From Halobaculum saliterrae (GTDB lineage: Archaea > Halobacteriota > Halobacteria > Halobacteriales > Haloferacaceae), in NCBI RefSeq assembly GCF_009831625.1, contig NZ_WUUS01000007.1, positions 124,001-188,000 of the forward strand: a stretch of DNA of 64,000 nt. Reading direction: 5' to 3'. Under the pieces are notes generated by a model, which was given only the letters and a program-made list of their open reading frames with translations, searched no databases and had not been told where the DNA came from. The translations under genes and the position numbers were made by a program. Positions 14,813 through 22,100 of the stretch are shown one piece after another (position 1 is the first letter of the stretch; every line of letters begins with the position of its first letter).

Positions 14813-16183
14813 ATGACCACCCACGAGCCCGACATCGTCGTGGTCGGCGCGGGGACGGCGGGCTGTTACGCCGCCGCCACGGCCGCCGAGGCGGGCCTCG
14901 ACGTCGTCATCGTCGAGCGGAAGGACGAGGAGGAGGCGGGCCACATCGCCTGCGGCGACGCGCTCAAGGGCGCCGACGAGTTCCCGGAGTCGATCCCGAA
15001 GCCGGAACTTGAGTCGGCGTTCACCAACACCGGCGTGGACCACGGGCGCTTCGAGATCCCGAGCCACGACACGGTGCTCGAGATCCCGATCCCGGGCGAG
15101 CTCGCTGTCATCGACCGCTGGGAGTACGGCCGGAACGTCATCGCGGGCGCCGAGCGCCGCGGCGTCGAGTTCCACTACGACACCGTCGTTCAGGACGTGA
15201 CCCAGACGGACGACGGCCGCGTGACGGGCGTCCGCGCCAAGCGGAAGGGCGAGGTCGTCGAGTACGACGCCGAGGTGACCATCGACGCCGCGGGTGCGCT
15301 GTCGATCCTGCAGGACAAGGCCGACCTCGCGGACGCGACGTTCGACACGAACGTGTCGTTCTCGCAGTTCTGCTCGGCGTACCGCGAGGTCGTCGAGGTG
15401 CCTGAACCCGTCGACTACGACGACGCGCTCGTGTTCAAGCCGACGAAGCGCGCGGCGGGCTACCTCTGGTACTTCCCGCGCACGGACACCGAGATCAACG
15501 CCGGTCTCGGCTTCCAGATGAACGAGGAGCCGATGAAGCTCGTCGACGACCTGAAGCAGGACCTCCGGAACCGTCCGGAGTTCGAGGGCGCGGAAGTGAC
15601 CGACAAACTCGGGGCAGCCCTGCCCACCCGCCGCCCGTACGACTCGGCGGTCGCGCCGGGGTTCATCGCCGCCGGCGACGCCGCCGGCCACGTCAACCCC
15701 ACCACCGGCGGCGGCATCGCGGGCGCCGCCTACGCCGGGAAGTACGCCGCCGAGCAGGCGGTCGAGGCCATCGACGCCGGCGACGTGAGCGAGGAGGCGC
15801 TGTGGCACTACAACGAGCGCGTGATGGGCCACTTCGGCTCCCGATACGCCGCCCTCGACGTGTACAACATCCTCTCGACGGCCGTCGACGTGGACGAGTT
15901 GATGGGCCTGCTCGCGTCGCTACCGGGCGAGAGCCTCGCGGAGGCGCTGTACTCCGGGAGCGCGTCGGTGAAACCGCGGCTCGTCGCCGAGGTGATCAAG
16001 GACAGCTACGGCCACTGGGGCCAGATCTGGGAGTTCTACAAGACGAAACGCGCCGCGGACGACCTGATGGACCACTACGGCCGCTACCCGACGCGACCCG
16101 GCGGGTTCGAGCCGTGGCGCGACGAGCGAGACCGGCTGATGGAGCAGGTGTACGACGTGACCGGCGCGGAGCCGAAGTACTAA
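14813..16183 (+). CDS. Geranylgeranyl reductase family protein (archaeal lipid biosynthesis)
   Basis: A 456-residue FAD-dependent reductase of the GGR family, which saturates the geranylgeranyl chains of archaeal phospholipids. The N-terminal dinucleotide-binding motif VVGAGTAGCYAA follows a short lead, the YLWYFPR segment belongs to the substrate region, and FIAAGDAAGHVNPTTGGGI is the second FAD motif common to this family. The C-terminal part, with DSYGHWGQIWEF, is typical of halobacterial homologues. A TATA-like GGCTTTTTCAC at about 14780-14790 suits a leaderless transcript from 14813. It faces the M20 amidohydrolase gene across a hairpin-rich spacer. Plant-type chlorophyll reductases share the fold but not the context. 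Confidence 0.88.
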   Translation: MTTHEPDIVVVGAGTAGCYAAATAAEAGLDVVIVERKDEEEAGHIACGDALKGADEFPESIPKPELESAFTNTGVDHGRFEIPSHDTVLEIPIPGELAVIDRWEYGRNVIAGAERRGVEFHYDTVVQDVTQTDDGRVTGVRAKRKGEVVEYDAEVTIDAAGALSILQDKADLADATFDTNVSFSQFCSAYREVVEVPEPVDYDDALVFKPTKRAAGYLWYFPRTDTEINAGLGFQMNEEPMKLVDDLKQDLRNRPEFEGAEVTDKLGAALPTRRPYDSAVAPGFIAAGDAAGHVNPTTGGGIAGAAYAGKYAAEQAVEAIDAGDVSEEALWHYNERVMGHFGSRYAALDVYNILSTAVDVDELMGLLASLPGESLAEALYSGSASVKPRLVAEVIKDSYGHWGQIWEFYKTKRAADDLMDHYGRYPTRPGGFEPWRDERDRLMEQVYDVTGAEPKY

Positions 16184-16243
16184 CCGACCACCTTTCGCGG
16201 GACCTCGCGCGCCTCCGAAAGACTCGGTCCGCTCGTCTTCCGT

Positions 16244-16415
16244 GTTCTCGTACGCCCCGATCACGAGAACTTCGGCGCGCTCGACCCCCGCCAACCCCCG
16301 TCGATGCTGGAGGAACGCGAAGCGTTCCTGCTGCTAACCAGACGCCGCAGGCGTCTGGTGACGCGGTCGGATCCTTCGAATCCGACTGCTGATCAGGATC
16401 GCTCTGCGATTCTGA
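16244..16415. repeat. Array of five consecutive hairpins between convergent genes
   Basis: Five inverted repeats lie one after another. (1) 16244-16251/16263-16270, GTTCTCGT, 11-base loop. (2) 16311-16318/16322-16329, AGGAACGC, loop GAA. (3) 16337-16346/16350-16359, ACCAGACGCC, loop GCA, perfect 10-bp stem. (4) 16366-16372/16380-16386, GTCGGAT, 7-base loop. (5) 16393-16402/16406-16415, ten pairs with one G-T, loop TCT. Three of the five have 3-base loops. The 317-bp spacer 16184-16500 has no other gene. It may be a bidirectional terminator, a structured RNA or a copy of a dispersed palindromic element; similar strings seem familiar from other haloarchaeal genomes, from memory only. Confidence 0.75.
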
Positions 16416-16500
16416 TGGCGATCAAAAGGCCGCTCGCTCGGGCCGAACGTTGGGACCGCGACGGGATCCGTATCCGAGCGTCCCGGCGTGAGGGCCCGCC

Positions 16501-21827: not shown

Positions 21828-22100
21828 TATAAGTCTTCTGTCGCGGCTCGTATTTAAGCCTTTGGCCGAGATCGATCGGTGGATTCGTCCCGAAGACACG
21901 CCGTATACGGGTGCATTGGGGGTTTCAGCGGTGGATGACGAACCGATAGGTATGTCACCCCCAGATCGACGGGTCGAGACGACACCGTCTGGGGCCGCCG
22001 GTCGCCGGCGGCGATCGGGACCCCCGCTCGCCCGGAGCCGACAGAGATAACTATAGAGCATACGCAAACGCTTTTGTATTACCAGATGTACTGATCGTGT

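Follow-up and report, generated by a model that had tools for sequence, protein, structure and literature searches.

Few small repeats are as abundant in bacteria as palindromic repeats of the REP type. One group of them, the CGTC-tagged REPs of Di Nocera 2013, reportedly includes Neisseria dRS3 and Rickettsia RPE-4/6. REP, BIME and REPIN elements are short palindromes, grouped as pairs or arrays with defined spacers and lying mostly behind genes (PMC3733652, PMC3116915). Together with the CGTC-tagged REPs and the Rickettsia palindromic elements (RPE), they are the nearest described kinds (PMC3733652, PMC3116915, PMC10969869) to a haloarchaeal repeat unit found in a 64,000 nucleotide stretch of the Halobaculum saliterrae genome, hereafter the window. 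No archaeal description of this unit was found in the open full-text literature, subscription papers lying outside that search. We consider the unit to be, most likely, an archaeal mobile palindrome pair resembling REP, BIME and RPE, housed as cargo in a T-tract terminator scaffold, with the window holding a decaying copy.

Hairpins and scaffold parts in the window

The hairpins lie in a 317 bp spacer between stop codons (16184-16500), flanked on the left by a + strand FAD-dependent oxidoreductase gene (TAA stop at 16181-16183) and on the right by a - strand M20 peptidase gene, the convergent arrangement that a first-pass annotation of this DNA had described. All five of the inverted repeats it reported in a row are present (5/5), and it was right about loops of 3 nt but not about their number, given as three; there are four such hairpins, the third counting only when one C-A mismatch is allowed. 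Their centres (16320, 16348, 16376 and 16404) follow a period of exactly 28 nt, and their loops read, in order, GAA, GCA, TTC and TCT. A coding origin of the array was rejected because 28 is not divisible by 3.

The four hairpins constitute two copies of a ~55 nt unit composed of hairpin a, a TGCTA linker, hairpin b and TGATG, all given here on the + strand. Unit 1 consists of hairpin a (16309..16331, GGAGGAACGC-GAA-GCGTTCCTGC, one G-G mismatch), the conserved TGCTA linker (16332..16336) and hairpin b (16337..16359, ACCAGACGCC-GCA-GGCGTCTGGT); in unit 2, hairpin a (16364..16388, CGGTCGGATCC-TTC-GAATCCGACTG) has one C-A mismatch and hairpin b (16392..16416, ATCAGGATCGC-TCT-GCGATTCTGAT) one G-T pair. 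Folded as single-stranded DNA, the 120 nt array core gives a z-score of -8.6, with an equally good fold in 0 of 200 shuffles, and the 261 nt region folded as RNA gives -3.5. In 20 Markov-random windows, no 84 nt stretch held three such hairpins. Elsewhere in the window, three overlapping and crowded triloop hairpin centres at 22003-22021 are probably a simple repeat.

The array is enclosed by parts of a larger structure, again on the + strand. The 5' arm of a long stem, P1 (16184..16213, CCGACCACCTTTCGCGGGACCTCGCGCGCC), directly follows the TAA stop and contains a weakened T tract, CTTT; its 3' arm (16274..16303) ends in GTCG, complementary to CGAC at 16185-16188, and is followed by an ATG (16304..16306) at the insertion slot. 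Beyond the slot, a conserved AAAAGG (16424..16429), which on the - strand reads CCTTTT, a T tract for transcription arriving from the right, precedes the 5' arm of a second stem, P3 (16430..16442, CCGCTCGCTCGGG), whose 3' arm is missing. Compared with the orthologous site L002 in genome G005, the window copy has an 82 nt gap that removes the P3 3' arm, and an extra hairpin pair of a second type in the P1 tip (16214..16273; hairpins 16217-16241 and 16244-16270), absent at L002. The latter hairpin, with an 11 nt loop, is the first of the five in the first-pass annotation; it thus belongs to this separate insert, along with the weaker hairpin beside it. With its P3 arm lost, T3 where T4 is usual, and a G-G mismatch, a C-A mismatch and a G-T pair in its stems, the window copy with its two tandem units is, to judge from its sequence, a decaying one. 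The second-type pair, GAAGACTCGCTCCGCTCGTCTTCC-GTG-TTCTCGTTCGCTCCGCTCACGAGAA, is itself a dispersed module that occurs in the tips of larger stems, in the window (16214-16273), at L004, and in the P3 tips of L006 and L039.

Distribution and stem evolution of the unit

The block recurs widely. A query of 16190-16500 against 60 relatives matched all 11 Halobaculum genomes, as separable modules. At E<=0.1, R1, a covariance model of the hairpin pair (78 positions, 14 seeds), has matches in 24 of the 28 genera sampled from the family (137 of 170 genomes). Across the order it matches 133 of 243 haloarchaeal genomes at E<=1e-4. The window matches it at 16356..16433 on the + strand (E 8.5e-27) by construction, its sequence being one of the seeds. 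A phylum sample of 197 genomes contained R1 in 20, just one of them outside the order, the about 160 outside-order genomes sampled being probably mostly low-GC archaea and an imperfect control for composition. Arrays in other genera are longer, with alternating TGCTA and TGATG linkers. With 2-6 hairpins per array and many copies, the unit occurs, as REPs do, in ordered pairs and arrays dispersed outside genes. All copy numbers of unit and scaffold given here are to be read as "at least".

Of the 1699 stem pairs in 85 parsed forward units, 1660 are Watson-Crick (a proportion biased upward, the units having been chosen by a model that favours pairing), 23 are G-T and 14 are A-C. Most stem positions vary among two to four kinds of pair, and the linkers are constant, indicating that pairing, not sequence, is kept. 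With both recurrence and compensatory stem changes found, the refutation proposed in the first-pass annotation, namely a block without recurrence or compensated stems, fails on both sequence tests. Stems measure 9-11 bp, the first pair of hairpin a is G-C in 76 of 85 units, and loops are 3 nt long in 158 of 170 hairpins. GNA loops confer unusual stability on DNA hairpins, and 118 of 184 loops are GNA or its complement TNC (related copies included) against 23 expected from the loop letters. Where orthologous sites share a stem, a hand tally gave 3 identical loops, 5 exact reverse complements and 4 others, which hints at loop inversion in hairpin or cruciform processing, the comparisons being few and non-independent.

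Because G-T and A-C pairs are rare and similar in number, selection on one RNA strand is argued against, and the likelihood of a DNA palindrome is no lower than that of an RNA. We regard as improbable the structured noncoding RNA that was among the first-pass suggestions, in which the array is a 3' UTR element or small RNA with a selected fold, acting in RNA as a protein-binding or stability element. The strong compensatory changes with constant linkers fit such an RNA, as does the location directly behind genes in one orientation. It sits poorly with wobble at ~1% without strand bias, with an array lying past a T tract where transcription should already be over, with in-frame copies inside conserved enzymes, and with a slot that many copies at comparable sites leave empty (see below). 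Nor does Rfam provide a match: the window region returned six chance-level matches, all under the gathering score, and five related loci returned zero. A tRNA and tmRNA search found none. A box C/D RNA, prompted by TGATGA near hairpin ends, was rejected on inspection, the motif not being kept across copies.

As a DNA element, the unit resembles REP, BIME and REPIN elements (PMC3733652, PMC3116915) in its paired or arrayed palindromes, compensatory stem changes, many copies and some intragenic occurrences. It differs from them in being archaeal, in its 3 nt loops, and in having conserved linkers and variable stems, as well as in lacking both a GTAG tag and a RAYT: to the left of the palindromes stands mainly TGTC or TGCT, to the right GATG, AATG or GACG, and no PF01797 match exists in this genome and several other carriers. 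The outer flanks of the 85 units read TGTC on the left in 30 and, as the reverse complement on the right, CATC in 49 and CGTC in 11. Dimers, heterodimers, some intragenic copies and the apparent lack of a dedicated transposase are shared with the CGTC-tagged REPs, and tags outside the dimers may be, but those, reported from bacterial phyla only, have an 8-9 bp stem starting with AT pairs and a 4-5 nt loop, whereas here 9-11 bp stems carry 3 nt loops, and neither AT first pairs nor the CCA tail is general. Since the GTAG tag, transposase and CGTC stem and loop tests all fail, we do not file the unit as a member of the REP or CGTC REP kinds.

The gene-end scaffold and its probable role in transcription termination

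In Halobaculum the array has one fixed position within a scaffold that lies just behind genes. Alignment by eye of 45 copies revealed a common layout of stop codon, short gap, (C)CGAC or GAAC, CxCTTTT, the GC-rich stem P1, AAAACCC, GTCG or GTTC, ATG, slot, ATC or CC, AAAAGG and the stem P3 (CCGCTCGCTCG...CTCGCTCGCGG), which reduces to the formula: stop codon, 2-10 nt, T4, P1, AAAACCCGT[TC/CG]ATG, slot, AAAAGG, P3. The slot of the 77 Halobaculum copies holds two hairpins in 27 cases, four in 4 and none in 46, where the empty junction reads GTCGATG followed by ATCAAAAGG or GTTCATG followed by CCAAAAGG. Cargo number differs at orthologous genes, and the same genes carry the scaffold, with differing cargo, in up to seven species. 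The scaffold starts 2-10 nt after the stop codon in 62 of 77 copies and has a T4 tract in 65 of the 69 parsed, and the closing helix of P1 is GAAC/GTTC (51), CGAC/GTCG (17) or GAAT/GTTC (1), crossed combinations numbering zero. Some genera other than Halobaculum also have it. Terminal peptides suggest names for two of the genes in front of it: one putatively CDC48-like, the other ending in LETFRFK and reading like aCPSF1 (L006, L026, L030, L085, L224 and L251, in two genera). aCPSF1 is the archaeal termination nuclease. From about position 1710 of L003 a long tandem repeat, CACCGCGACAGCAACGCTACCGC, adjoins P3, and similar CACCGCNACCGC runs lie by other copies.

This scaffold probably ends transcription, because its T4 tract lies so near the stop codon and a T5C tract gives 95% termination in Haloferax volcanii (PMC7237163). 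Like the T-tract terminators found there by RNA 3' end mapping (PMC7237163), it presents a T stretch and then a C near the stop codon; unlike them, its T tract sits inside the long paired stem P1, with P1, array and P3 coming after it. The upstream gene's transcript would end at this T tract, and transcription in the antisense or convergent direction at the T4 of P3. A bidirectional insulator-terminator, also suggested in the first-pass annotation, agrees with the T4 so placed and with the A4 tracts, which are T4 on the opposite strand, but is not a general role, since only about half of the copies have a convergent right-hand neighbour (- strand in 19 cases, + strand in 17).

It might instead be supposed that the whole is an ordinary strong multi-hairpin terminator evolved in place, its copies alike through common gene descent and convergent selection. 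Retention of the scaffold at orthologous genes would agree with this, and hairpin clusters have been proposed as terminators in bacteria (PMC8355165). Yet the hairpins come after the T tract instead of before it, and such an origin leaves unexplained the precise slot, the differing arrays at orthologous sites, the identical 57 nt unit at non-orthologous sites and the unit inside coding sequences. For the array this reading is refuted by the MutS insertion described next, and for the scaffold it survives; as an account of the whole we hold it to be quite improbable.

Mobility and the question of a mover

The mutS gene of G009 contains a 57 nt in-frame insertion of a related unit that is absent in all seven aligned congeners (7/7), the flanks being 98% and 93% identical in G006; the unit is therefore mobile. 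An exact pair of empty and filled sites occurs at porB-like orthologs (L051 versus L034), and a 55 nt element with a 2 nt duplication fits both cases, with a boundary ambiguous by 1-3 nt. An identical 57 nt unit, loops included, stands behind different genes at three sites, two in G009 and one in G006. The unit is also found in frame within genes for FAA hydrolase, GH3, AFOR, an ABC transporter and a carboxyltransferase, in a single orientation and frame in the translations examined. These insertions in unrelated conserved protein genes, with MutS having empty congeners, liken the unit to RPE, which differ in being about 150 bp long and Rickettsia-specific, the present unit being about 55 nt and mainly extragenic. 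The first-pass idea of a dispersed palindromic mobile element is thus well supported by the many copies, the empty and filled sites and the in-frame insertions. Empty scaffold sites could also have arisen by deletion between the ATG repeats on either side, and it is the MutS case only, one filled against seven empty, that points clearly to insertion.

Several loci deserve mention individually. A sensor kinase gene of G087 (L117, about 1500-1650) holds an intragenic four-hairpin array with a flanking ~18 nt imperfect duplication, AACGCCATTGAGCACGGC, and its first hairpin, CATTGAG-cacgg-CTCAATG, appears built from host sequence. In three genomes (L114, L203, L204) the unit occupies one place in a gene that resembles an IS1341-type tnpB, and an IS may carry it between species. 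The plasmid search yielded the window form nowhere and one diverged Halorubrum-like copy, an array between annotated genes of a Halomicrobium urmianum plasmid (L207; NZ_CP084091.1, about 284.8 kb). Viral copies were rejected, the 15 IMG/VR hits for the linker pattern having no surrounding hairpin pair and being ascribed to chance.

A non-autonomous element of IS200/IS605 type, or one dependent on a RAYT, would have its hairpins acted on by a Y1 HUH transposase. The resemblance of hairpin pairs with conserved flanks to REPINs (PMC3116915) and the presence of Y1_Tnp genes in 22 of 35 haloarchaeal genomes speak for such an element; against it stand seven carriers without a PF01797 match, namely this H. 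saliterrae genome and G001, G003, G010, G015, G016 and G018, all with units or scaffold copies, as well as the lack of a GTAG tag and the report of TnpA-REP classes from bacteria only (PMC6006769). A Y1 transposase was accordingly rejected as the mover, and we deem such an element highly improbable. No mobilising enzyme was found, and no autonomous partner element was noticed at the retrieved loci; a dedicated enzyme is probably absent. A transposase-free spread of palindrome pairs across the haloarchaea, in which host replication or repair enzymes copy the folded hairpins, remaking both stem arms together, flipping loops and recruiting host sequence into new hairpins, is a speculative extension that we rate as unlikely.

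The account we favour, a mobile palindrome pair in a terminator scaffold, can be put as follows. The scaffold is a gene-end structure which, in Halobaculum and some other genera, comes right after the stop codons of a fixed set of genes; it comprises the T4 tract, the stems P1 and P3 and the opposite-strand T4 tracts. Its cargo is at least one copy of the mobile ~55 nt palindrome pair, inserted at the one slot. The unit would spread as DNA, probably by way of a folded single-stranded or cruciform intermediate, leave a short duplication of 2-3 nt on insertion, and be tolerated chiefly behind genes and at times in frame within them. It works like bacterial REP, BIME and REPIN elements and RPE, without their known transposase.

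How tagged REP families move without a transposase is an open question, which a haloarchaeal counterpart makes testable in a second domain. The system has genetically tractable relatives, sites that occur both empty and filled, in-frame insertions within genes and a landing slot that is fixed. It is relevant, too, to the marking of gene ends in haloarchaea, and the in-frame units give conserved enzymes short acidic, polar peptides.
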